61,896 nt of DNA from Chloroflexota bacterium (lineage in GTDB: Bacteria; Chloroflexota; Anaerolineae; Anaerolineales; Villigracilaceae), in contig JAADGN010000023.1 in assembly GCA_013152325.1 (NCBI GenBank), positions 1 through 61,896 of the forward strand, read 5' to 3'. The position numbers and the translations under genes are program-made. This document shows, piece by piece, positions 25,440 to 36,537 of this stretch; position 1 is the stretch's first letter; each line of letters begins with the position of its first letter. The notes beneath the pieces were generated by a model. The model was not told the DNA's origin, did no database searches, and saw nothing but the letters and a program-made list of their open reading frames with translations.

Positions 25440-26768
25440 ATGCGCTCAATAACGGCAAAATTGGTGTTGGCCTTTCTAGGGGTCAGCCTTGCCAGCATTG
25501 TGCTGATTGTGTTCTTTGCCCGTTGGTCGGCAAACGAGGAATTCAGGAAATTCTTGTCTGCCCAGGATCAGGCCAATATTGCAAGCACATTTTCTGACTA
25601 CTATCGTGAACAAGGCTCCTGGGCAGGTGTTGATGAAGTGACGTTGTCTTTCGGAAATCTGACCCAAAGTGGAAGGTATCCTTTTGCGCTGGTAGATAAT
25701 ACCGGCGAGGTCGTTTTTGCAGGGTTCGGACATACCCTTGGTGAGATCGTTTCCCAGCCAGAAATGGAACAGGGTATCCCCATAGTTGTGGACGAAAACG
25801 TCGTCGGGACATTGCTTGTGAGTGATGCCATGCCTCGTATGCGTCCAGGCGGGGATGCATTTCTTAAACGGATAGATAGCGTGCTCTTGTTCAGCGCGTT
25901 GGGCGCAGCGCTTCTTGCCCTGACGTTGGGCCTGCTTCTGTCTCGATACCTGACGCGGCCCATTCGTGAGTTGACCGCTGCCACGCGCGCCATTTCTGAG
26001 GGGAATCTAGAGCAGGTCGTTCCCGTCCGCTCGCGGGATGAATTGGGCGACCTGGCCGCCTCGTTCAACCGTATGAACGCCGACCTGGCTCGCTCACTTG
26101 ATCTGCGCCGCCAGATGGCGGCCGATATCGCGCACGAACTGCGCACGCCGATCAGCGTCATTCTCGGTCATGCTGAGGCTGTTCACGATGGCGTTCTGCC
26201 GCCATCGATGGAGAATTTTGAGATTATTCGCGAAGAAGCCGGGCGTCTCGAACATTTGGTGGAAGACCTGCGTACGCTTTCCAGAGCAGACGCGGGAGAA
26301 CTGCCCATCGAGCGTCAGCCGGTGGCCCCGCAAAAGTTGCTCGAGGATGTGCGGGCCATTCACAGTCACCGTGCTAGTCAAAAGAATATTACCGTGGACG
26401 TGCAGGCTGCTCCTGATTTGCCTGAGATATCCGTTGATTTTGGGCGCATGATCCAGGTTTTGAGCAACCTGCTGGATAACGCCTTGCGTTATACGCCCGA
26501 AGGCGGGCAGGTTATGTTATCTGCCCGGCAAGTTGGGCAGATGCTCGAAATGCGAGTTCAGGATAGCGGCCCGGGGTTGGCCGATGATGAATTGGCGCAC
26601 ATCTTTGACCGCTTTTACCGCGCGGACGCCTCCCGTCAACGAGATGAAGGAGGATCAGGCCTGGGATTGGCGATCGCGAAATCGCTCGTTGAAAAGCATG
26701 CCGGCCGCATTTGGGCTGAGAGCCGGTTGGGGCGGGGGGTAACGGTGGTGATCACGATTCCGATCTGA
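25440..26768 (+). CDS. Sensor histidine kinase (BaeS-like)
   Basis: 442 aa. Membrane helix about residues 8-27, extracytoplasmic sensor about 30-145, second helix about 147-168, HAMP domain (LTRPIRELTAATRAISEGNL), H-box with phosphoacceptor H232 in DIAHELRTPISVI, N-box LLDNALRYTPEGG, and G boxes DSGPGLADDELAHIFDRFYR and GSGLGLAI. Phosphorylates the regulator encoded upstream. The sensor domain is short and unlike known ligand domains. Confidence 0.94.
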   Translation: MRSITAKLVLAFLGVSLASIVLIVFFARWSANEEFRKFLSAQDQANIASTFSDYYREQGSWAGVDEVTLSFGNLTQSGRYPFALVDNTGEVVFAGFGHTLGEIVSQPEMEQGIPIVVDENVVGTLLVSDAMPRMRPGGDAFLKRIDSVLLFSALGAALLALTLGLLLSRYLTRPIRELTAATRAISEGNLEQVVPVRSRDELGDLAASFNRMNADLARSLDLRRQMAADIAHELRTPISVILGHAEAVHDGVLPPSMENFEIIREEAGRLEHLVEDLRTLSRADAGELPIERQPVAPQKLLEDVRAIHSHRASQKNITVDVQAAPDLPEISVDFGRMIQVLSNLLDNALRYTPEGGQVMLSARQVGQMLEMRVQDSGPGLADDELAHIFDRFYRADASRQRDEGGSGLGLAIAKSLVEKHAGRIWAESRLGRGVTVVITIPI

Positions 26769-26875
26769 ACGATTTTTCAAAGTAGTCCCTTTACGGAATG
26801 CTCTCGAGGGCCTATAACAGGAAGCCCTGCGGAGCAGGAAATTGAAGTCAGCCTTGCGACACTTGCACCTCGTTC

Positions 26876-27667
26876 CTACATCGTACCTTTATACATGCCG
26901 CCGTCCACGTTGAGCATTACGCCGGTGAGGTAGGACGCGGCGGGCGAGACCAGGAAGACGGCCGCGTTGGCAAACTCTTCCGGCTGCCCCATGCGTCCCA
27001 GCGGACTGGCGAGCGATTGTTTGGCGATCTCTTCCTCGACGGTGGTGCCGTTGCTTTCGGCGCGGAACGACATTAATTCGATGACGCGCTCGGTTTTTGT
27101 CCAGCCGGGCAGAATGGAGTTGAAGCGGATGCCGTCGCCGCCCAGCTCGAGCGCCAGCGTCTTTGTCAGGCCGACGGTGGCGGCCCGGACGCTGTTGGAG
27201 AGTATCAGGTTGGGAATGGGCTGTTTGACGGTGATCGAGGTGACCGTCAGTACGCTGGCCGCCTCGGATTGGCGCAGGTGGGGCAGCGCGGCGCGGATCA
27301 GCCGGACGTGGCTCATGAACGATAATTCGACGGCCTGCTGCCAGTCGGCCTCGTCGAACGATTCGAACGCGCCCGCCGGAGGCCCGCCCGCGTTGGTGAC
27401 GAGGATGTCCAGTCCGCCGAGGGCTTCGGCGGCTTTCCGGATGATGCGTTCCGGCATGGCGGGAACGGAGACATCGCCGGGGACGGGAATGACTGTCGAG
27501 CCGGCGGCCTCTTCAAGTTCACGCGCGGAGGCGGTGAGCTTTTCGGCGTCGCGGCTGTTGATCGCTACGCGGCAGCCTTCCATTGCCAGCCCGCGCGCGA
27601 CAGCGTATCCCAATCCGCGCGACGCGCCAGCGACAAAAGCACGTTTATCTTTGAGTTGTAAATCCAT
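26876..27667 (-). CDS. Short-chain dehydrogenase/reductase family protein, atypical active site
   Basis: 263 aa. Rossmann motif VAGASRGLGYAVARGLA (about 12-28), NAGGPPAG (about 92) and VDGGMYKG at the C-terminus. Where classical enzymes have Ser then YxxxK, this protein has VTSITVKQP and then LSNSVRAATVGLTKTLALEL, so the Tyr and Lys are replaced by Ser/Asn and Arg. Such FabG-like variants exist and may use other chemistry or be non-catalytic. Often annotated 3-oxoacyl-ACP reductase; I would not assign that reaction. Single gene. Confidence 0.82.
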   Translation of the reverse strand: MDLQLKDKRAFVAGASRGLGYAVARGLAMEGCRVAINSRDAEKLTASARELEEAAGSTVIPVPGDVSVPAMPERIIRKAAEALGGLDILVTNAGGPPAGAFESFDEADWQQAVELSFMSHVRLIRAALPHLRQSEAASVLTVTSITVKQPIPNLILSNSVRAATVGLTKTLALELGGDGIRFNSILPGWTKTERVIELMSFRAESNGTTVEEEIAKQSLASPLGRMGQPEEFANAAVFLVSPAASYLTGVMLNVDGGMYKGTM

Positions 27668-27747
27668 TTTTCTCTCCTTTTCGTGAGGGTTGCTTTACAG
27701 GGCGTCTGGTTTGGACTAAACTTGTGAAAACGAGACGGGAGGTTGTG

Positions 27748-28392
27748 ATGCAATTGGATACGGGTCAGTGGGTTGTCATTGGCGTGAGTATTGTTCTCCT
27801 GGGCTGGTATATTGGTGGGTATTATTATAATCGGCGGCAGGCGGAGAAGATTTTTGCCTGGTTGCGAGAGGGGCTGACGCCGTGGGGCGAACTGCGCGCC
27901 GGGAAGCGGTTGAGCGGCATGACGACTGGCGGGCGGGTGCGTGTCCAGAATGCTGCTGCCCCTTTCCGCCGCATCGAGGCGACCTTTACGCTGGAAGCGC
28001 GTGAGAACTTGTTTTTCTGGTTGTTCAATTTGTTACAGGGCAAACGGGACGAACTGGTTTTGGAAGTCGCTTTGCGCCAAATGCGTGTCCAGGAAATTGT
28101 GGCGGCCCGCGACGGCGACGCGGAATTGAAGCGTGTGCTGGCCGCGCCGGGGAAAAAACCTTTCCAGTTTGGGCCTGGGCCGCGGGATTTCCAAATTGCC
28201 CGCCGGGGGGCGGAGAATGACGACGGTGTACAGGAGCGGGTGAAGGCCTTTTTGGAGGTGTATGGCAAAGCGGTGTATCGTCTTTCACTGCAAAGGAACG
28301 AGCCCCAATTGAAGGTCTATGCCAAGCTGCCGTTCTTGCTGCCCAGGTCTGCCAGGGCTTTTTTTGAAGATTTGCAGCAATTGGTTGGGTAA
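27748..28392 (+). CDS. Hypothetical membrane-anchored protein
   Basis: 214 aa from ATG 27748, with GGGAGG about seven bases upstream; a GTG at 27724 is in frame but has no ribosome site. One N-terminal helix (WVVIGVSIVLLGWYIGGYYY) followed by a soluble domain of about 180 residues rich in Arg and Leu. No family recognised. Closed by the hairpin at 28477-28507. Confidence 0.65.
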   Translation: MQLDTGQWVVIGVSIVLLGWYIGGYYYNRRQAEKIFAWLREGLTPWGELRAGKRLSGMTTGGRVRVQNAAAPFRRIEATFTLEARENLFFWLFNLLQGKRDELVLEVALRQMRVQEIVAARDGDAELKRVLAAPGKKPFQFGPGPRDFQIARRGAENDDGVQERVKAFLEVYGKAVYRLSLQRNEPQLKVYAKLPFLLPRSARAFFEDLQQLVG

Positions 28393-28476
28393 GGGGATGC
28401 TTTGCGCTAACGCTCCGTGCCGCACCTGCGAGCGGGGCTTTGCAAGTCTGGGCGGGGCGGTGGTGACAAGAAATGA

Positions 28477-28507
28477 ACGTCGCGGCATTTTCTGCCGCGA
28501 CGTTTTT
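28477..28507. terminator. Intrinsic terminator between convergent genes
   Basis: ACGTCGCGGCA and TGCCGCGACGT pair perfectly (11 bp), followed by TTTT on the plus strand. Confidence 0.88.
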
Positions 28508-28524
28508 GGTTAAGCCGTCCGCGT

Positions 28525-29508
28525 TCAGGCAAAGAGCAGATCGGCGGCGCGCTTGAGCATGTCTACGCCGCGCACTTCGGTCTCGAAAAGCGGCAGGACG
28601 GCGCGTACCCGGTCGTCGAATTCGCTCTCGATTTTCTTCATGTACTCATCCTGCATGGCAACGCGGTTCTTGACGAAGTCCGGCGAGGTGTCCTTGACGC
28701 TGTTCTTGTCGATTTGCATGTTGACGACCACGCCGCCGACGGGGATGTTGAACTCGTGGAACCAGCCAATGAAGCGGGTGATGACGGCGATCGGCAGGGC
28801 TTCCGGCAGGGTGACGAAGAAGAACGAGGTCAGAGTCTTGTCGGTGAGCAGCTCTTTGGCATGCGCCATGCGTTCGCGCAGGTTGAGCAGGTATTCCATC
28901 AGGGGGTCTTTCTCTTTTTTCTTCTTGCTGTAAGAGAGTATATCTTTAAGACTCATCGCCTCTTCACGGCTTTGAACCATTTTGTTGACCCACATCGAGT
29001 ATACGCTGGACATGCCAAGCAGGCGGCGGGCGTTGGCGGTCGGCGCTGTGTCGAAAACGTAGACGTCGTATTCGTCATCGAACATCAGGTCGATCATGTT
29101 CTCGAACATGGCCGATTCTTCGAAGGATGGGTTCATGGTTGCCGATTCGACGAACTCCTCGGCCTTGGTCTTGATCTCGGCGAATTTCAGGAACCATTCG
29201 ATCTTTTCGCGGATCTCCCGTTTGGATTTCTCGATGGTGTCGTGGGTGTCGATTTCGTAAGCCCACAAATTGGGGACGCCCTCCACCTGAGTGGGTTTGC
29301 CGAAGACGTTCTGGTCGAGCAAACTGCTCAACGAGTGGACGGGATTGGTGGAGGCCAGCAGCGTTCTCTTGCCCTGCTGGGCCTCCCAGAGAGCGGCAGT
29401 CCCGGCCATGACCGTTTTGCCGACGCCGCCCTTGCCGCCGAAGAAGATGTATTTCAGGCTGGAATTCTCAGCCATGTATGCTTGCATGGATTTCTTAATC
29501 ATGGACAT
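28525..29508 (-). CDS. ArsA/GET3-like ATPase, copy B (Asn in switch I)
   Basis: 327 aa. Deviant Walker A FGGKGGVGKT (residues 23-32, with the signature Lys26), switch I STNPVHSLS (53-61) where GET3 has STDPAHNLS, so the catalytic Asp is Asn55 here, and switch II DTAPTANARRLLG (153-165), which is canonical. NPSFEESAMFENM matches the GET3 PGxxE region. No cysteine is present, so neither the zinc CxxC of GET3 nor the arsenite-binding triad of ArsA exists. GGAGG at the end of the upstream frame serves this ATG. Last gene of a six-gene operon; paralogue of the gene at 29511. Probably a dimeric client-binding ATPase; client unknown. Confidence 0.85.
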   Translation of the reverse strand: MSMIKKSMQAYMAENSSLKYIFFGGKGGVGKTVMAGTAALWEAQQGKRTLLASTNPVHSLSSLLDQNVFGKPTQVEGVPNLWAYEIDTHDTIEKSKREIREKIEWFLKFAEIKTKAEEFVESATMNPSFEESAMFENMIDLMFDDEYDVYVFDTAPTANARRLLGMSSVYSMWVNKMVQSREEAMSLKDILSYSKKKKEKDPLMEYLLNLRERMAHAKELLTDKTLTSFFFVTLPEALPIAVITRFIGWFHEFNIPVGGVVVNMQIDKNSVKDTSPDFVKNRVAMQDEYMKKIESEFDDRVRAVLPLFETEVRGVDMLKRAADLLFA

Positions 29509-29510
29509 GA

Positions 29511-30494
29511 CTATTTTCCTCCATCCTCGAACAGGGCGTTCGCAACTTTTTCGATCATCGGCAATCCGGTAATATCCCGTTCGAATTCGGGCACGTTGGT
29601 CAGCACCTCGTCGCCGAACAGTTGGTCGATTTTCTCCATATATTTCTCCTGCATTTCCATGCGGTTGCGCAGGTAATCGGGAATATCTTCTTTGGCAAGT
29701 TCCAGCGGGATGACGCGGTTGACGATATAGCCGGAGAGCGGCACGTCGAATTTCGCGAATAATCCGGCGGCCTTTTGCGTATCAAGCAGGATCATCTCCT
29801 CCGGGATGAGGACGAAATAAAAGGCCGTCTTCTCCCTGTCTGTCAGAATGCTGGATGAGGCGTTGATGCGATGTTTAATATATTGCAGCTCTTCGAGGAT
29901 CTTATCCTCGTCAGTTTCCTTGTCGCGCCGCATTACCGACGCGACCTGTTCGTACTCCGCCATTTCTTCGCGCAGACGGGTGATCTTGTCGATCCACTGA
30001 TCGTAGACGGAAGCCATGCTCAGGTAATAGAGGGCGTGTCCGAGCGGAACGAGGTCGTAGATGTAATAGTCGTAGTCGCCGCTGACGACGATGTCTACCA
30101 CCTCGTCGAAGATGGCGCTTTCCTCCATCGCTGGCTCGGCGGCTGCAGCCTGAATGTAGTTCTCGATCTCTTCGGGGACTTCTTCCAGGCCGTACATGTC
30201 GAGGATCTTCTGCCGGATTTCGTCCTGGTATTCCCTGATGCGCTGGTCGGCGTCGATTTCCTGGGCAAACAGGTTGGGCATGATCTCCACGGGCCCTTTG
30301 CCGAAAATATCTTGCTCGAAAATATCAGAGAGACTGGCTTGCGGGTCTACTGAGAACACCAATACTTTGCGGCCCTGTTTTGCCAGCCAATAGGCTGTGG
30401 CAGCGCTGAAAGTGGTCTTGCCCAGGCCGCCTTTTCCCCCGAACATGATATACCTCCGTTCGGGATTTTGTTCGAAGACTTCACGCAGAGACAT
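29511..30494 (-). CDS. ArsA/GET3-like ATPase, copy A (altered switch II)
   Basis: 327 aa, same length as its downstream paralogue. Deviant Walker A FGGKGGLGKTT (18-28), switch I SVDPQASLSD (48-57) keeping Asp50, but switch II reads YDLVPLGHALYYL (146-158) instead of DTAPTGHTLRLL. EPAMEESAIFDEVV corresponds to the GET3 PGxxE element. No cysteines. The first two bases after its stop begin the spacer to the next ATG, so the two ATPases are translated in tandem and may form a heterodimer. Not linked to arsenite genes, so an arsenite pump role is unlikely. Confidence 0.85.
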   Translation of the reverse strand: MSLREVFEQNPERRYIMFGGKGGLGKTTFSAATAYWLAKQGRKVLVFSVDPQASLSDIFEQDIFGKGPVEIMPNLFAQEIDADQRIREYQDEIRQKILDMYGLEEVPEEIENYIQAAAAEPAMEESAIFDEVVDIVVSGDYDYYIYDLVPLGHALYYLSMASVYDQWIDKITRLREEMAEYEQVASVMRRDKETDEDKILEELQYIKHRINASSSILTDREKTAFYFVLIPEEMILLDTQKAAGLFAKFDVPLSGYIVNRVIPLELAKEDIPDYLRNRMEMQEKYMEKIDQLFGDEVLTNVPEFERDITGLPMIEKVANALFEDGGK

Positions 30495-30504
30495 TGTATT
30501 TCTC

Positions 30505-30771
30505 CTATGCTAACGCGTCGGTCAGGTCTTTTTCGCGCAACATGCGCCGTTTCCAGGTGCTGATCTGCGGCACGACGTATGGCAGCAGGCGCAGACTGTA
30601 GTACGGCGGCAGGATGGGGATGCCGAGCAGGTCGCCCATCGTGATCAGGATGAAGAGGTGTTCCATGCTGCCGCGCGTCTTGAGGGCGTAGCGCGCCATG
30701 TCGTGCCCGGCCATGCCGTACAAAACGTTCTTGAAGCTGTTCAACCAATTTTTCTTCTCTTTCTCTGTCAT
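30505..30771 (-). CDS. Small hydrophobic protein of GET3-like operon, copy A
   Basis: 88 aa with AAGGAG ribosome site. A charged N-terminus (MTEKEKKNWLN) is followed by EHLFILITMGDLLGIPILPP, then YYSLRLLPYVVPQI and a basic-acidic tail WKRRMLREKDLTD. Roughly residues 36-68 are hydrophobic enough for one re-entrant or single membrane helix. Clear paralogue of the gene at 30821: both have EHLFILI, FGDLLG/MGDLLG, PILPPYY and RRxMLRE. Family unknown to me. Ten bases before the ATPase gene. A membrane anchor or client for the ATPases is inference. Confidence 0.75.
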   Translation of the reverse strand: MTEKEKKNWLNSFKNVLYGMAGHDMARYALKTRGSMEHLFILITMGDLLGIPILPPYYSLRLLPYVVPQISTWKRRMLREKDLTDALA

Positions 30772-30820
30772 GTTCGTGACTCCTTGTGGTTTTGATTTAT
30801 CCTGTAGCTGGATATGCGGT

Positions 30821-31120
30821 TCAAGTGATGTCCTGATCGCAGAGGTCTGTCATATCGCGTTCCCGCAGCATGCTGCGCCGCCAGCCGGTGATGTTGGGCA
30901 TGACATAAGGGAGCAAACGCAGTGTGTAATATGGCGGCAGGATGGGAACGCCCAGCAAGTCTCCAAATACGATCAGGATAAATAAATGCTCGAGTTGGGC
31001 GCGTTCCTTGTTCAGTTCGCGCATCATTTCGTAAATGGTCGCGCCGTAAAACATTTCGCCAATCATTTTGGCGGTCTTCTTCAGGTTTGTCAGCAGATTG
31101 GTCAGCAGTGGGTTTGTCAT
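30821..31120 (-). CDS. Small hydrophobic protein of GET3-like operon, copy B
   Basis: 99 aa; start at 31120 from the ATGA overlap with the preceding thioredoxin-like gene (longer GTG start at 31264 lies inside that gene). N-terminus amphipathic (LLTNLLTNLKKTAKMIGEMF), then EHLFILIVFGDLLGVPILPP, YYTLRLLPYVMP and a charged tail RRSMLRERDMTDLCDQ. Same plan as the 88-aa neighbour. No domain recognised. Confidence 0.75.
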   Translation of the reverse strand: MTNPLLTNLLTNLKKTAKMIGEMFYGATIYEMMRELNKERAQLEHLFILIVFGDLLGVPILPPYYTLRLLPYVMPNITGWRRSMLRERDMTDLCDQDIT

Positions 31121-31521
31121 GGGGTTATGTTGGCAAATTGCGGGACAAGCCCCGCAGTTTGCAAGATTTCGTCCAGCTGCTCGATGTCCCACCCGGCGAC
31201 TTTCCCATGCCCCAGGACGATGAAGGTCGGGTAGCGGCGGACGCCATAGCGGACCGATTTCCACAAACCTTGCAACGAACGCGGGTCGAAGATGCGGATG
31301 AGAACGGCGTCGCCGTAGCGGACTGCAATGTTCATCACAGTGTCAGACAGCCGGCGAAAATCCTCCTGCCAATCGGGAGGGTATTCTTCCAGATTGCGTT
31401 CGTAGGGAGGTTTGTCCATGTCTGCTTGCGCCATGATCATTTCACAAGAGATGCAAAATCCCCAGCCTTCGGGGACTGGTGAAATAACATCAATAACGAC
31501 TTGTGTGGCTGGCTGTATCAT
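31117..31521 (-). CDS. Thioredoxin-like protein with CxxC, GET3-like operon
   Basis: 134 aa from ATG 31521, which overlaps the upstream stop (ATGA). GWGFCISCEMIM near residue 22 is a CxxC redox motif, and RYPTFIVLGHGKVAGWD near residue 105 carries the cis-Pro of a thioredoxin fold; DAVLIRIFDPRS is the central strand. The C-terminal half is paralogous to the 86-aa protein encoded just upstream, which lacks the cysteines. Could be the reductant or sensor of the operon; substrate unknown. Confidence 0.75.
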   Translation of the reverse strand: MIQPATQVVIDVISPVPEGWGFCISCEMIMAQADMDKPPYERNLEEYPPDWQEDFRRLSDTVMNIAVRYGDAVLIRIFDPRSLQGLWKSVRYGVRRYPTFIVLGHGKVAGWDIEQLDEILQTAGLVPQFANITP

Positions 31522-31778
31522 TGCAGGTTCTCTTTCAGCGACTTTTGTAGTATTTCGTTCAGCGCGGTTTTGTCCCATCCGGTGTACTTCTCTTTGCCGT
31601 TGACGACGAAGGTCGGATATTTTCGTATCCAGTAGCGCAGCGCCTTCCATAGTCCCAGGCCTGATTGGGGGTCGATGACCCAGATTTCGATTTGCGGGCC
31701 GTACTGACGGGAGATATCCGCAATCCACTCCGAAAGACGTAAATGTTCTTCCATCATTTCTTCGGGATACCCGGCCAT
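31518..31778 (-). CDS. Thioredoxin-like protein without cysteines, first gene of GET3-like operon
   Basis: 86 aa. IEIWVIDPQSGLGLWKALRY and KYPTFVVNGKEKYTGWDKTA match the C-terminal half of the next protein (IRIFDPRSLQGLWKSVRYG and RYPTFIVLGHGKVAGWD), so it is a thioredoxin-fold paralogue without the CxxC region. Start at 31778; the ribosome site is weak. First of six minus-strand genes joined by two ATGA overlaps and short gaps. Confidence 0.72.
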   Translation of the reverse strand: MAGYPEEMMEEHLRLSEWIADISRQYGPQIEIWVIDPQSGLGLWKALRYWIRKYPTFVVNGKEKYTGWDKTALNEILQKSLKENLQ

Positions 31779-32128
31779 AATGATTTCTTGGTGTACCTTT
31801 TCGCCAATACCCGATTGGCTATACAGCGTTTCGCAGTGTTGTCACTGGTTGTAGCTGGTGGGAACAAGCGAAAGGACTTCCAGACGAATCGCTGGCATAG
31901 TGGTTGGCCTCACCGCAAAAGATCAACAGGGGAAGGATGTACGGCGCATACCGATGCACCGTACATCCTTTGGACCCTATCCGAAAAATACTTGCAGCAG
32001 CGGCTTTCCTGACCCAGACTGTCAGGACTGGGCAGTCGCGGTTGAACGGCTGACCCTTGCAGGGTGCTGGGCGAAGCCGCTGCCACGTTTTGATTCTTTA
32101 ATTTTTTCGGATAGACTCTTGGCTTTTC
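31779..32128. other. Gene-free region with strong inverted repeats between cstA and the GET3-like operon
   Basis: Holds three structures: GCCAAT-ACCCG-ATTGGC (31804-31820), a perfect 10-bp stem GGATGTACGG/CCGTACATCC (31935-31968) that may terminate cstA, and a large multi-branched element at 31977-32114 described separately. No coding frame is credible. Confidence 0.6.
31977..32114. repeat. 138-bp multi-branched inverted-repeat element
   Basis: Outer arms CTATCCGAAAAAT (31977-31989) and ATTTTTTCGGATAG (32101-32114) pair over 13 bp with one bulge. Inside, GCAGCGGCTT (31997-32006) pairs perfectly with AAGCCGCTGC (32074-32083). Within that are two hairpins, CCCAG/CTGGG (32013-32032) and ACCCT/AGGGT (32053-32065). 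It may be a structured RNA (5' leader of the minus-strand operon or 3' end of cstA) or a MITE-like element; no clear target duplication was seen. Confidence 0.55.
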
Positions 32129-33901
32129 CTACGCTTCGGCTGGCGCCTCGGAGCGGAATTTTTTATAGGATTTGTAGGCATCCCAACCAAGAATCAACGC
32201 GGCAATGATCAGGTAAACTGCGATGGCTCCGGCCAGAATATTGCCGACGACCTTGTCAATGGGCAGGCCGCCTGCGAGTACCTGGCTGAAGACCTTGATG
32301 GCGGTCAGCAGCAGGGCGTATAGTGTGGTCACGAACATGAACAGGAAGGGGAGCAGTGTCCACATGTATTTCTTGCCTTGGGACATCAGCCACAAGGTGA
32401 CCAGCAGCAGGGCCAGCGAGGCCATCAACTGGTTTGCGCCGCCGAACAAGACCCAGATGCGCACCCAGAAACCGGTCCAGATGACCAAAGCCGAGAGGAC
32501 CAACGCAACAAGTGTGCCAAAGGTCGTGTTTTTGAAGAGCGGCATTTTGTCGCCCAGGAATTCGGCCGAGGCCACGCGCATGAAGCGTACCACCAGGTAC
32601 ATGATCGTGAGTGCCATCAGGGTCAGGAAGACGGAGCCATATGGCAGACCGAAGGAGGTCGGCACGCCGACATGGGACATCATCTCGCTCAGACCGACGG
32701 CGAACACGCCGGCGTTCTTGCCGGCGGCAACCAGGCTGACGTATCCGGCGAAGCCTTTGCTTACGCCCACGCCAACGACCGCTGTCAGCAGCGCCAGAAC
32801 GGCCAGGAACATTTCCATGAACATCGCTCCGCCGCCGACGAACAGCGCGTCGGATTCTTTTTCCAATTGGCGGGCTGTGCCGGAGGATGAGACCAGGCTG
32901 TGCCAGCCGGAAACCGCGCCGCAGGCGATGGTCACGAACAGCAGCGGCCAGAGGGGGCCAATGGCGCCGACTGTCTTTTCGATGCCAGAGCAGTCGGTCG
33001 CCGCGCACAGGTCTCCGCTCCAGTTGGTGAAGGCCGGGAAATCGGCGGGGAAGGCCGGGTGCCAGATGAACAGGCCGATTGTGCCGGCCAGGATACCCAG
33101 GAAGACAATCCAGAAGGCCACGTAGTTGATTGGCTGCGCCCAGCGCCAGATTGGCAGCACTGCGCCGAAGTAACAGATGACAAGGACGATCAGGCTCCAG
33201 ACGAAGTGCGCCCGTGTGACCGAGCCGAAGACGATCTGGTCGGGGCTGCCGCTGATGGCCGCGAAGAAGTTCTGCACGGAGTCCAGTGTGCCCAGCCAAA
33301 TTCCGATAAAGGCCAGCACAACGGTGATGATGCTGGTCATGATGATGTCCATCTTCCACTTGTAGGTCATTTGTCCTGCTAGCAGACCGATGCCGATGAC
33401 GATGAACACACCCAGCGGGACTGCCGGGTTCGACATCAGGTCATAGCCGACGATCTTGCCGAATGCGCCCATGATGAGCAGCAGGTAAAAATAAATAAAT
33501 GTCAGCAAGATGGTTCGCGCCCGCGGCGAGATAAAGCGGTAACTCAACGCGCCGAAGGATTGTCCATCTTCACGCACGCCCAGAATAATGCTGGAATAAT
33601 CCTGTACCCAGCCGATGAAGAACGTGCCGAAGATGATCCACAACAGGGCTGGCAGCCAGCCCCAGCGCACCGCTACGATTGGGCCGACAATTGGTCCCAA
33701 CGCGGCGATGGACTTGAACTGGTAGCCGAAAAGAACGTTTCGGTTGGCTGGAGTGAAATCCACGCCATCCATATACATTTTGGCGGGGGTGGCTTTGTTG
33801 TCATCGGGTTGAATGACTGTCTTGTTGAGCGACTTGGCGTAAATGCCATAGCCGACTGCAATGCCAGCAAAACCAAGAAGAAGGGTTAGAACGGCATTCA
33901 T
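32129..33901 (-). CDS. cstA: Carbon starvation protein A (CstA) family transporter
   Basis: 590 aa, within the family's range, with about 16 membrane spans. Family motifs: RNVLFGYQFKSIAALGPIVGP near the N-terminus, GWVQDYSSIILGVREDGQS, SGWHSLVSSSGTARQL in the middle, and FGGANQLMASLALLLVTLWL later. CstA-type carriers take up pyruvate or peptides and are often induced on carbon limitation. GAGGAG ribosome site. Single gene, divergent from the TPR protein at 34174; the 270-bp divergent gap carries TATACT (34117-34122) for the other side. Confidence 0.93.
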   Translation of the reverse strand: MNAVLTLLLGFAGIAVGYGIYAKSLNKTVIQPDDNKATPAKMYMDGVDFTPANRNVLFGYQFKSIAALGPIVGPIVAVRWGWLPALLWIIFGTFFIGWVQDYSSIILGVREDGQSFGALSYRFISPRARTILLTFIYFYLLLIMGAFGKIVGYDLMSNPAVPLGVFIVIGIGLLAGQMTYKWKMDIIMTSIITVVLAFIGIWLGTLDSVQNFFAAISGSPDQIVFGSVTRAHFVWSLIVLVICYFGAVLPIWRWAQPINYVAFWIVFLGILAGTIGLFIWHPAFPADFPAFTNWSGDLCAATDCSGIEKTVGAIGPLWPLLFVTIACGAVSGWHSLVSSSGTARQLEKESDALFVGGGAMFMEMFLAVLALLTAVVGVGVSKGFAGYVSLVAAGKNAGVFAVGLSEMMSHVGVPTSFGLPYGSVFLTLMALTIMYLVVRFMRVASAEFLGDKMPLFKNTTFGTLVALVLSALVIWTGFWVRIWVLFGGANQLMASLALLLVTLWLMSQGKKYMWTLLPFLFMFVTTLYALLLTAIKVFSQVLAGGLPIDKVVGNILAGAIAVYLIIAALILGWDAYKSYKKFRSEAPAEA

Positions 33902-34116
33902 AATTGTTGTCTCCTCTTAAGTATGGCTTGCGATGATTGGTAGGTGACCTTTTGTTCGCATCGCTCGGACAAAGGGCACAGCAGCGTAATGCTATGAAAT
34001 ATCCGCATGATTTTCCTCGCCTCACCTCCTCTCACGTTTTTCTTTGAAAATCTCCGTATTCCAGCGATAATTCCTTGGAAAACTTGAATAACATGGACTT
34101 TCGTTTGCAAGACATG

Positions 34117-34160
34117 TATACTATTGATGCCAAACTTGATTGACGCCAAACTTGAGTGTT
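34117..34160 (+). promoter_or_regulatory. -10 box and short direct repeat before TPR gene
   Basis: TATACT at 34117-34122 is a good -10 box. GCCAAACTTGA occurs twice with a spacing of about 16 bases (about 34128 and 34144), between the box and the gene. Confidence 0.4.
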
Positions 34161-34173
34161 CTCGGAGGCCGCT

Positions 34174-34773
34174 GTGGAACCATCTGTATTACTTTTGCTG
34201 ATCGGCTTTTTCTATATCGTTGTCTTTGGCGGACTGTCTCTATTCAAACGGGAAGGACTTTCTGCCCGTTTTGCTGTTGAGGCGATCATCATTACCGTTG
34301 TTGTCAGTGCGCTGACCGCGTTGACGGGCTATCTAATTCAGCCGGTCGTGTTCTTGATCTTTGTTTACCTGGTCACAATGCGCATACGTCTCCTGGTGGA
34401 TGTTGGCAACTTTTTTGCTGAACGGGGTCAATTTGCGCGGGCAGATGGGTTGTATGCTCTGGCTTCCCGTTTATGGCCTGACGCCACCGGTCTTATTATT
34501 ATCAAGATCAACCAGGCAACCTCGCTCTTGAAACAGAACAAACTGGACGCATCCATTGCGATGCTGGAGGATGTCTTGCAACAGGCGGACAAGGGCTATA
34601 TGGGAGTTAAGCACGAGGCCGCTGTGCATTACAACCTGGGCGTTGCCTACCTGCGCAAAAATATGGACGCGCGGGCAACGATGGAGTTCAATGCTGTTCT
34701 GGATACTTGGCCTACATCTCAATATGCGCGTCACGCGACAGTGGCGCTCGAACGTCGTCGTCAGAAAAAATAA
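34174..34773 (+). CDS. Membrane-anchored TPR-like protein
   Basis: 199 aa from GTG 34174, chosen because GGAGG (34164-34168) lies five bases before it. Three hydrophobic segments at about residues 6-24, 34-55 and 58-72, then a soluble helical region with TPR-like pairs: NFFAERGQFARADGLYALA, INQATSLLKQNKLDASIAML and VHYNLGVAYLRKNMDARATM. Probably a membrane-bound scaffold. No known partner. Closed by the hairpin at 34840-34876. Confidence 0.72.
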   Translation: MEPSVLLLLIGFFYIVVFGGLSLFKREGLSARFAVEAIIITVVVSALTALTGYLIQPVVFLIFVYLVTMRIRLLVDVGNFFAERGQFARADGLYALASRLWPDATGLIIIKINQATSLLKQNKLDASIAMLEDVLQQADKGYMGVKHEAAVHYNLGVAYLRKNMDARATMEFNAVLDTWPTSQYARHATVALERRRQKK

Positions 34774-34839
34774 CCCCGTCACATCTAAAGATCGAAATCC
34801 GCAACCGGACGACGTTCACTTACCTGTAAAGCAAAAAAG

Positions 34840-34877
34840 AACGCCATTAAGCAAGAACATTGCTTGATGGCGTTTTG
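34840..34877 (+). terminator. Intrinsic terminator after TPR gene
   Basis: AACGCCATTAAGCAA and TTGCTTGATGGCGTT pair with one mismatch and a five-base loop, followed by TTGG. Confidence 0.82.
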
Positions 34878-34972
34878 GGTATACAAAATCCTTGCGGCAG
34901 GGCGGGCACCATCGCCTGACTGCATGGAAAAGTTGACCAAAGGTAGAAGCGGGAAAAGAGTTCCATCTTCAA

Positions 34973-35041
34973 GAGGAAGAGCACCTGTGAACAGGCATCT
35001 AATTTAGACAACACTGATTTCATCGAAAAGTGTTGCTCTTC
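34973..35041. ncRNA. Possible three-way-junction RNA
   Basis: Outer stem AGGAAGAGCA/TGCTCTTCCT (10 bp), an inner hairpin CCTG-TGAA-CAGG, and a second inner hairpin CAACACT/AGTGTTG (7 bp, loop of 13). All pairs are perfect. No promoter or T-run is obvious on either side, and I recognise no known RNA class, so this is a structural candidate only. Confidence 0.35.
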
Positions 35042-35091
35042 CTATGGCCTATTTTACATATAAAGCATAAATAATCAATAAAAATCGTGAA

Positions 35092-35373
35092 TTAGACGAT
35101 CTCGATCTTTTCATCTACAATCGTCATATCCGGCCAGTTGTTCTCCACCCACTTCGAAACAGTTTGCAACGCGCGCTGTACCTGCGCCTTGTCGTTGCTG
35201 ACCAGCGCACAGGCGATGACCGCATCCTGCCAGGTGTCTTGCAGATCCATCTCGGCGACGGAGACGTTGAATTCACGGTGCAGGCGCGTCAGCAGCGGTT
35301 TCAGTCGCCGCCGCTTTTCTTTCAGCGAGGCGCAGCCGGGGATGTGCAGGTGAATGGTGAGTATGCCGAGCAT
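35092..35373 (-). CDS. DUF503 (YlxP-like) protein
   Basis: 93 aa from the ATG at 35373 (MLGILTIHLHIPGCASLKEKRR), which is how family members begin; an ATG ten codons earlier lies in the HIT gene overlap zone. SLKEKRRRLKPLLTRLHREFNVSVAE is the conserved helix-strand core. DUF503 proteins are small, often beside ribosome-maturation genes; function uncertain. Ten bases after the HIT gene, probably co-transcribed. Confidence 0.85.
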   Translation of the reverse strand: MLGILTIHLHIPGCASLKEKRRRLKPLLTRLHREFNVSVAEMDLQDTWQDAVIACALVSNDKAQVQRALQTVSKWVENNWPDMTIVDEKIEIV

Positions 35374-35383
35374 GAACGTACTT

Positions 35384-35812
35384 TCAGTCTTGCAGTGCTT
35401 CACGCAGCGCTGAAGCGAGTTTTTCCGCTTCAGCCTGTTCGCAGGTCATGTCCTTCGCCAGGAAGGGGACGCCGCGTTCGGGAATATCTTTGGCGCGCGG
35501 CACCAGCCAGACGTGAAAGTGGGCAATGCCTTCGAGAAAGACGACCTGATAGACGCGCTCCGCGTCGGTCAGGGACTTGAGCGCGCCATATATTTTTTTC
35601 AGCAAAGGCCCGTAACTGGCTGCTTCGTCGGCGTTCATTTCGGCGAAATCCAGGAAGTGCCGCGCGGACTCGACGAACAGCGTCCCCAGCGGGCCTTTTT
35701 CGACTGGCGCGTGGCACACTTTCCAATGCTCGCTGGCATAGACGTAGCCGCCGGGTGGTTGGGCGGTCTGCCCGGCCTGTTTTTGGCAGAGGAAGCAGGT
35801 ATCGTCCTTCAC
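35384..35812 (-). CDS. HIT-family nucleotide-binding protein
   Basis: 142 aa. FCLCQK-like Cys pair at the N-terminus (CFLCQKQAG), the central LFVESARHFLDFAEM, and the HIT motif as HFHVWLVPR (about residue 98), where the usual HxHxHxx has Val-Trp-Leu. The third His is replaced, so activity may differ from Fhit/Hint hydrolases. Divergent from folC. Confidence 0.82.
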   Translation of the reverse strand: MKDDTCFLCQKQAGQTAQPPGGYVYASEHWKVCHAPVEKGPLGTLFVESARHFLDFAEMNADEAASYGPLLKKIYGALKSLTDAERVYQVVFLEGIAHFHVWLVPRAKDIPERGVPFLAKDMTCEQAEAEKLASALREALQD

Positions 35813-35957
35813 GCAGAGTTTCCTTTTTGTCTTAAGTGGGGCGGGAGATTGCTTTATGCTGCGCGGGCCTCGCTTCGTTCCCTTGCAAGAACGTGGGGTC
35901 GAAAGTATCCGCGCCCCGCGCGTAAAACCGCCTCTTGCAATCAGACTTGCGGCGGAT

Positions 35958-35963
35958 TACAAT
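35958..35963 (+). promoter_or_regulatory. -10 box of folC, near-leaderless
   Basis: TACAAT (35958-35963) stands seven bases before the folC ATG, with no ribosome site between. Confidence 0.4.
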
Positions 35964-35970
35964 CCATCCA

Positions 35971-36537
35971 ATGAACACTGAAACCGCTTATAACAGCGCT
36001 CTCGATTACCTCTACAGTTTCGTAGATTATAGCCTGAAACACGCCTCCGAGCTGGCCAAGGCCGAGTTCAACCTCGACCGCATGCGCGACCTGATGCATC
36101 TGCTTGGCGATCCGCAAGAGACATATCCTGTCATTCACATCGCCGGGACGAAGGGCAAAGGCTCGGTCGCCGCGCTGTGCGCGAGCGCGCTGCACGCCGC
36201 GGGCTACCGCGTGGGGCTCTACACCTCGCCGCATTTGCAGGACTTCGCCGAGCGGATGCAGGTGGACGGCGCGCCGATTCCGCACGCCGACCTGGCCGCG
36301 CTGGTCGATGAGATCAAACCCGCCGTGGCGCAGGTTCCCTACAACTTTCGAGTTGACCACCGCGCTGGCTTTCCTCCACTTTGCCCGCCAAAACGTGGAC
36401 GCGGCGGTCATCGAGGTCGGTTTGGGCGGGCGGCTGGACGCGACCAACATCGTCACGCCGCGCGTCTCGGTCATCACCTCGCTTTCGCTGGATCACACGG
36501 CTGTGCTGGGCGATACGCTGACGGATATCTCGGGTGA
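35971..36537 (+). CDS. folC: Folylpolyglutamate/dihydrofolate synthase, N-terminal part (frame break at 36343)
   Basis: Starts MNTETAYNSALDYLYSFVDY. The family's ATP-binding loop IHIAGTKGKGSVAALCASAL (about residues 58-77) and YTSPHLQDFAERMQVDG follow. The frame is right up to VPYN at 36340-36345; after that the correct continuation is in the +1 frame, and this ORF runs on with unrelated residues to 36537. One extra base (A at about 36343) or two missing bases explain it. FolC adds glutamate to folates. Confidence 0.88.
   Translation: MNTETAYNSALDYLYSFVDYSLKHASELAKAEFNLDRMRDLMHLLGDPQETYPVIHIAGTKGKGSVAALCASALHAAGYRVGLYTSPHLQDFAERMQVDGAPIPHADLAALVDEIKPAVAQVPYNFRVDHRAGFPPLCPPKRGRGGHRGRFGRAAGRDQHRHAARLGHHLAFAGSHGCAGRYADGYLG

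Follow-up and report, generated by a model that had tools for sequence, protein, structure and literature searches.

A CstA-linked locus that combines a complementary pair of GET3-like ATPases, a probable selenoprotein and a protein with a predicted CCDC47 fold

The contig JAADGN010000023.1 of a Chloroflexota bacterium (assembly GCA_013152325.1; the whole 61,896-nucleotide stretch is called the window below) encodes a CstA-family carrier next to two GET3/ArsA-like ATPases (A1 and A2), two small hydrophobic proteins (H1 and H2), two thioredoxin-like proteins (T1 and T2) and a membrane-anchored protein, CstY. We show that these genes belong together and that the active-site motifs of A1 and A2, a conserved pair, complement each other. 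The sequences of the T proteins show an interchangeable selenocysteine/cysteine (Sec/Cys) centre, T1 is probably a selenoprotein, and CstY has the predicted fold of CCDC47. We tentatively propose that the locus may be a dedicated ATP-driven, redox-linked machine for the assembly or activation of its CstA-family carrier.

The locus is partly known. An earlier note on this DNA, made from the sequence alone, knew of no described system with this composition. However, an association of CstA, CstX, CstY and ArsA was published in 2010 (PMC2963123), and the locus is larger than the six genes that the note took for the complete unit. What is new is the probable selenoprotein T1, with the same TGA codon recurring across a second phylum; the strict complementarity of A1 and A2; the predicted fold of CstY; and the co-occurrence of CstA, the ATPases, T and CstY in 301 Chloroflexota genomes.

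A conserved locus around CstA

The six genes of the earlier note lie on the minus strand, where it placed them. T1/T2 and T2/H1 are joined by ATGA overlaps, and gaps of 49, 10 and 2 nt separate H1 from H2, H2 from A1 and A1 from A2. Its three paralogous pairs were recovered by blastp, with 36% identity over 322 aa for A1/A2 (E = 9e-65), 61% over 70 aa for H1/H2 and 45% over 77 aa for T1/T2. Two gene starts are corrected: H1 starts at 31120, and the start of T1 moves from 31778 to 31898 if an in-frame TGA encodes Sec. The note missed the obvious partner, CstA (590 aa; 32129-33901, minus strand; PF02554, E = 4.6e-119), which lies directly upstream of the six-gene set. CstY (27748-28392, plus strand), convergent to A2, belongs to the locus as well. 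H1 and H2 match the published CstX, and the 27748-28392 gene the published CstY, in size, topology and position; the names are given on these features, not on sequence.

A relative of A1 is encoded in 106 genome-contig stretches, of which the best 80 were kept as loci. Their labels name Chloroflexi, Acidobacteria, Rokubacteria, Gemmatimonadetes, Delta-, Beta- and Alphaproteobacteria, Actinobacteria, Bacteroidetes and Poribacteria, although all labelled records are metagenome-assembled genomes whose taxon names may be wrong. In 79 of the 80 loci, A1 has A2 behind it in the same orientation; the exceptions to note are L042, which ends within A1, and L036, where the contig end leaves just 92 aa of A2. 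A gap of about 0.9 kb parts the two genes in L037 and L081. An H gene is found in 74 loci, CstA in 62, CstY in 44 and T in 33, all of them lower bounds because many contigs end inside the locus. The order of A1 and A2 and the presence of H indicate an arrangement beyond chance. The six genes of the earlier note are real and come in pairs, and their order is conserved.

We then counted the genes in 301 Chloroflexota genomes, some of which are also among the 80 loci, with counts that ignore shared ancestry. CstA is present in 38 genomes. The ATPase pair is found in 37 (E ≤ 1e-50), 35 of them with CstA; T in 36, two of them weak (G073 and G333), and together with CstA in 35; and CstY in 32, with CstA in 30 and with the ATPases in 31. 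CstA, the ATPase pair, T and CstY therefore largely co-occur, in about 12% of the genomes. Three genomes have CstA without ATPases at the cut-off used. One of these, G189 (L103), has T, CstA, two CstX and an A1 cut by the contig end. Six genomes with the ATPases and without CstY, and one with CstY and without the ATPases (G338), argue against a strict unit.

Two side observations concern CstA and the locus as a whole. In G143 (L102) and G221 (L104), the 9-9.5 kb fetched show CstA with no ATPase, CstX or T beside it; this CstA is apparently of a different type. Four Chloroflexota loci, L098-L101, carry the whole locus in divergent form (their A2-profile matches have E of about 1e-92 to 1e-105), with T variants in which the Cys are spaced differently; three of them also have a divergent extra CstX.

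The ATPase pair

A1 (29511-30494) and A2 (28525-29508), both on the minus strand, are GET3/ArsA-type ATPases of 327 aa each, as the earlier note had read them. Both are full-length members of PF02374 and TIGR00345, A1 with E = 4.7e-74 and E = 5.1e-71, respectively, and A2 with E = 6.6e-70 for PF02374. These matches exceed the curated cut-offs, and the P-loop GKGGxGKT is present. Their switch motifs are divided between them. A1 has SVDPQAS in switch I and DLVPLGH in switch II, whereas A2 has STNPVHS, with Asp changed to Asn, and DTAPTAN. The switch-I residue is Asp in 81 of 81 A1 rows and Asn in 78 of 78 A2 rows, so the catalytic Asp expected in every GET3/ArsA subunit is absent from A2. Switch II reads DLVP in 81 of 81 A1 rows and DTAP in all 77 A2 rows that have letters there. 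A1 thus keeps the Asp without DTAP, and A2 keeps DTAP with Asn. A further measure of the split is that 38 alignment columns are conserved within each group yet differ between the groups. The divergent L098-L101 clade retains Asp and Asn, with DMPPFGH and DTAAVAN in switch II. At the second-phylum (Rokubacteria-labelled) loci, 12 of 12 A1 and 12 of 12 A2 sequences with readable motifs agree, although up to six of each repeat loci among the 80.

Yeast Get3 carrying D57N binds ATP and does not hydrolyse it (PMC12506534). Alignment of the DPAH-type switch of A1, together with that of A1 to A2, places the A2 Asn at the D57 position. Given the Asp/Asn split and the behaviour of D57N, the pair most likely hydrolyses ATP at one site and holds it at the other. 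The asymmetric heterodimer suggested in the earlier note is strengthened by this complementarity, which is seen in every sequence with a letter at these positions, and we infer that A1 and A2 heterodimerise.

The solved chains nearest to the A1 query are 3ug6 (221 bits) and 3zq6 (207 bits), which we take to be archaeal Get3 proteins, followed by ArsA1 (5zme, 186 bits) and E. coli-type ArsA (1f48, 113 bits). A1 retains the helical stretch, which aligns to 3ug6 with small gaps only. In Get3, a CxxC where the two subunits meet binds zinc; in A1, Pro and Leu stand where 3ug6 has its Cys pair. Neither ATPase of the window contains Cys, and 58 of 81 A1 rows and 61 of 78 A2 rows are free of it. The absence of arsenic chemistry asserted in the earlier note is upheld: A1 and A2 of the window lack metalloid-binding Cys, and no ars family was found by Pfam in the two flanking genes or by neighbour clustering at the 80 loci, a search that did not take the other neighbours one by one.

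Two further searches were made with the ATPases. Plasmid-borne relatives of A2 occur in 2022 records, all below 60% identity; among the matches listed, 14 of 15 are annotated ArsA, at 29-31%. A part in anti-phage defence was rejected, since PADLOC gave only the P-loop stretches of A1 and A2 against PDC-M28B (best E = 4.1e-8 over 42 residues).

CstY, the T proteins and CstX

CstY is a protein of 214 aa with a hydrophobic N-terminal helix and an alpha/beta domain. Its AlphaFold2 (AF2) model, built with 43 sequences, has a pLDDT of 93 and a pTM of 0.87. When it was compared with 350,542 PDB chains by Foldseek, the best match was 7tm3_4 (E = 3.3e-9, TM-score 0.72 on the query, root-mean-square deviation (rmsd) 5.5) and the second was 6w6l_7 (E = 3.3e-5, TM-score 0.52, rmsd 7.0). 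Both chains are CCDC47, and they are the sole PDB matches below E = 1e-3, the third standing at 0.036. The predicted model therefore combines the fold of the CCDC47 cytosolic domain with an N-terminal transmembrane helix.

By sequence, an identification of CstY as CCDC47 was rejected as not significant. The Pfam family PF07946 (CCDC47) gives 15.2 bits (E = 0.012) for the window CstY against a cut-off of 27.7, and at E ≤ 1 it matches two of 43 CstY members and none of 10 others. Two CstY profiles found no CCDC47 chain in the PDB up to E = 10, and hhalign gave a probability of 0.2% for CstY and a CCDC47 fragment, no better than a T control. The same Pfam model had one weak match in 60 related genomes (17.1 bits, profile positions 233-324, in an 827-aa frame) and none in 14 control genomes. 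The fold is thus the evidence for the link. A 2022 Nature paper (PMC9630114) describes prokaryotes as being without PAT components, and in a literature search that included the relevant parts of PMC7505659 and PMC11186639 we found no prokaryotic CCDC47 homologue.

Whether the resemblance reflects common descent is a question separate from the role of the locus. CstY could have converged on CCDC47, being a small alpha/beta domain anchored in the membrane and functionally unrelated to the PAT complex. The lack of significant sequence similarity is consistent with convergence, as is the size of CstY, which at 214 aa against 483 has no CCDC47-like C-terminal coiled coil. However, two chains of a single protein were the only matches below the threshold in the whole set, with a TM-score of 0.72 normalised by the model, and the weak Pfam match from sequence names the same family. 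We consider convergence less likely than not.

T1 has been mis-started. The standard call begins at 31778, which is 40 codons late if the in-frame TGA at 31842-31844 (minus strand) is read as Sec. The gene then spans 31518-31898 (minus strand) and encodes 126 aa, with U19 (U-x-H-C-E) in place of the first Cys in a C-x-x-C-E motif. T2 (31117-31521, minus strand, 134 aa) is its Cys paralogue. If U is counted as C, the two Cys and the Glu do not vary across 34 aligned T rows, a set that leaves out L069, which lacks the motif region. TGA stands at the first Cys in seven of the 35 T rows from the 80 loci and the window, namely window T1 and six Rokubacteria-labelled contigs; T1 of the window is the only TGA-type T in Chloroflexota. 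In 95 genomes of the Rokubacteria-labelled phylum, there are 26 T rows in 22 genomes, 21 of them with exactly one TGA and five, three of these partial, without. The loci of all 21 TGA rows make up 20 stretches with 24 T rows, six stretches repeating the six contigs above. Among these 24, 20 have U at the first Cys and retain the second Cys and the Glu. L149 has one row reading CQHCH (two Cys, no Glu) and one C-terminal piece. Standard calling of open reading frames (ORFs) mis-starts Sec-type T genes.

Other arrangements of T were seen in this phylum. L147 has a tandem pair of one all-Cys and one Sec copy, as in T1/T2 of the window, and in the tandem pairs of L137 and L139 both copies are Sec. 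The T at L145:4728 (minus strand), with U at the first Cys and Arg at the second, is possibly decaying; the 8.5 kb fetched gave none of the other locus genes.

The window genome encodes SelB (340.9 bits, cut-off 242.25) and tRNA-Sec (70.5 bits, gathering score 47). In the six Rokubacterial TGA genomes, SelB is over the cut-off in five and tRNA-Sec in four; the misses may reflect incompleteness. The evidence for a selenocysteine insertion sequence (SECIS) in T is suggestive only. In the window, a SECIS-like hairpin 3' of the TGA, read by eye (GCCAAU-CGGGU-AUUGGC; 31803-31819, minus strand), can pair but is not the minimum free energy (MFE) fold (z-score -0.60). In the Rokubacterial T genes, a hairpin with a GGC loop 19 nt past the TGA is the MFE fold in four of six.

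The redox link suggested in the earlier note is carried by the UxxC/CxxC motif of T. Its two thioredoxin-fold proteins fared less well, as the best PDB profile match is weak (E = 0.0086) and stands with a CxxC and a YP-x-F pattern. T1 and six other T proteins had no NCBIfam 20.0 match over the cut-off, and two of the seven gave weak ArsE/MTH895-type matches. A 2026 review lists many UxxC families, and its main text contains neither CstA nor ArsA (PMC13188914); a literature search on selenoproteins together with CstA, ArsA or carbon starvation yielded no description of a T-type protein. Judged from the seven members scanned, T appears to be a selenoprotein family without a name in NCBIfam 20.0.

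H1 (30821-31120, 99 aa) and H2 (30505-30771, 88 aa, strongly conserved, EHLFILITMGDLLG.PILPPYYSLRLLPYV), both on the minus strand, are the CstX-like proteins. H1 matches the cory-CC-star family NF041419 (E = 2.8e-10) and has a 19-residue hydropathy maximum of 1.98, but scores of 40.1 and 33.6 bits fall below the cut-off of 80, and the CC terminus, which its name implies and which we presume to be expected of this family, is absent. L062 (10035-10289), L064 (9976-10233), L077 and, within the same family, L107, L108 and L110 have a third CstX copy on the downstream side of A2. The AF2 model of CstX matches no PDB fold.

In E. coli, CstA and the 65-aa YbdD import pyruvate, and uptake falls to 20% of wild type when ybdD is deleted and to 13% when cstA is deleted (PMC5847655). 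E. coli YbdD (NC_000913, 632182-632379) ends in Cys-Cys and matches the KCU-star selenoprotein family (E = 1.6e-19, 70 bits, cut-off 85). An identification of CstX with YbdD was not supported, with 2.3 bits, an hhalign probability of 0.3%, no PF04328 or NF033934 match and no CC/CU terminus. The CstA of the window contains a single Cys, C327, which is Cys in 57 of 57 aligned copies above 450 aa (56 loci and the window) and in E. coli CstA; phmmer found no relative of CstA in the PDB. CstA-type carriers seem to recur with a small partner and a redox element that bears Sec or Cys.

Around these genes, an intrinsic-terminator-like hairpin with a 12-bp stem follows A2 (28476-28504, minus strand, pattern match). 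The pattern gave 11 such sites against 8.6 expected from shuffles, and this one has the longest stem. A membrane protein labelled tetratricopeptide repeat (TPR)-like by eye (34156-34773, plus strand; also L028:10013-10603) is an optional neighbour with homologues in 16 of the 80 loci. No family of ORFs of at least 100 aa other than CstA, CstY, T and the TPR-like protein recurs in more than six of the 80 loci, and an Rfam scan of 26000-36000 gave no match.

Possible roles and comparison with known systems

If the locus assembles or activates CstA, A1 and A2 would form a Get3-type heterodimer in which both subunits bind ATP. Hydrolysis would occur at the A1 site only, A2 carrying the Asn that blocks it in yeast Get3. 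The ATP-state dimer would hold the two small hydrophobic CstX proteins, and on hydrolysis they would pass to CstA at the membrane; there CstY, with its CCDC47-like membrane-anchored domain, may serve as a docking platform or intramembrane chaperone. T would set the redox state of a thiol on the CstA side, for which the conserved Cys327 is the best candidate. The product would be an assembled, switchable CstA-CstX carrier, the counterpart of CstA-YbdD in E. coli. The membrane-protein targeting or maturation suggested in the earlier note is a possibility that gains from the predicted fold of CstY.

Several points weigh against this proposal. That the locus proteins act on CstA is something we infer, and descriptions of E. 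coli CstA give it YbdD as sole partner and no ATPases of this kind. No homology between CstX and YbdD could be detected, and the AF2 model of CstX is weak (pTM 0.46). CstY shows no significant sequence similarity to CCDC47, and its gene and A1 are on different strands in 37 of the 44 loci that have it, so it is linked yet often not co-transcribed. T1 has no match in any of eight other genomes of the same genus, which makes at least T patchy. SelB is over the cut-off in four of five comparison genomes with a Cys-type T or with no T found, so it permits Sec and is no proof of it. An ATPase bound to a permease is the classic ArsA-ArsB arrangement, which would favour powering over assembly.

Powering is what Castillo and Saier proposed: ArsA energises CstA via CstX (PMC2963123). 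Applied here, A1 and A2 would couple ATP hydrolysis to transport by CstA with CstX as linker, as in ArsA-ArsB, turning a secondary carrier into an ATP-driven one, and T and CstY would be regulatory. We regard direct energising as almost as likely as assembly of CstA-CstX. The near one-to-one co-occurrence of the ATPases with CstA and their fixed clustering with a permease fit it well, as does the co-evolution of the CstA, CstX and ArsA trees (PMC2963123). Asymmetric ABC transporters have one hydrolytic and one degenerate site, and the A1/A2 pair resembles them. However, Get3-type chains outscore E. coli-type ArsA by 221 to 113 bits for the A1 query, the ligand-binding Cys of ArsA are not present, and the locus includes a protein whose predicted fold is that of an assembly factor for membrane proteins. 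Another reading is a wider pathway, in which A1/A2, CstX and CstY would act as a GET/PAT-like insertion route with many clients, CstA among them. GET3 and CCDC47 are eukaryotic membrane-protein biogenesis factors (PMC9630114, PMC12506534), and the gap-poor alignment of the A1 helical stretch to 3ug6 agrees with such a role. Since the genes are missing from most Chloroflexota and track CstA, and a general pathway should not hinge on one transporter gene, we find this improbable. Handling of metalloid or thiol stress is less probable again. ArsD is a thioredoxin-fold metallochaperone; T would act in its manner and the ATPases would drive export. An ATPase, a thioredoxin-like protein and a permease do recall an ars operon, and T has its two weak ArsE/MTH895-type matches, but A1 and A2 of the window and most of their relatives are Cys-free, and the published carbon-starvation operons, as far as that account describes them, include no arsenic-resistance gene (PMC2963123).

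A bolder form of the assembly proposal is that CstY is a prokaryotic relative of CCDC47, that CCDC47 descended from CstY, and that CstY and the GET3-like heterodimer assemble one multipass carrier that is redox-gated by a selenoprotein. We hold this to be possible but doubtful. If it were true, the GET and PAT factors of eukaryotes would have a functional setting in prokaryotes in common. With a bacterial CCDC47-fold family tied to GET3-like ATPases, the origin of the PAT machinery would become testable in simple organisms, and the natural Asp/Asn split provides a one-site heterodimer in which the ATP cycle of Get3-like proteins can be dissected. Carriers of the CstA type occur widely, and why they require accessory factors, YbdD in E. 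coli and the present set elsewhere, awaits an explanation.

Among known systems, the mycobacterial BagA/BagB (chains of one entry, 6bs3) also comprise two different GET3-like ATPases, but A1 and A2 match NF053622/NF053621 only distantly, far below the cut-off. With GET3/TRC40/ArsA, the pair shares whole-length homology and the P-loop KGGxGKT in both subunits, with the switch motifs spread over the pair. It differs in being an Asp/Asn-split pair of two genes, in having neither the CxxC nor the ArsA cysteines, and in clustering with CstA. CstY resembles CCDC47, which belongs to the PAT complex of the multipass translocon, in predicted fold, N-terminal hydrophobic helix and alpha/beta domain, and departs from it in sequence, in length and in the coiled coil. 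As in E. coli CstA-YbdD (KCU-star, DUF466), CstA stands with a small partner. The E. coli partner family carries CC/CU itself; CstX does not end in CC, the Sec is in a separate thioredoxin-like protein, and the YbdD family PF04328 is found in 0 of the 301 Chloroflexota genomes at E ≤ 0.001.

The published cst clusters come from a single paper, the only one on the CstA-ArsA association that we found. Castillo and Saier reported 26 such associations, 24 of them with CstX (about 90 aa, one transmembrane segment), CstY (about 210 aa, one transmembrane segment) in five archaea, and a single-domain ArsA of about 330 aa; CstX was paired in two organisms and ArsA adjacent and paired in two, and no arsR was noted (PMC2963123). 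Sections 3.1, 3.2 and 4 of that paper describe no thioredoxin-like or selenoprotein subunit, Asp/Asn split or link to CCDC47, features that the present locus adds. Here, as in the published clusters, CstA lies beside an ArsA of about 330 aa and a hydrophobic protein of about 90 aa.

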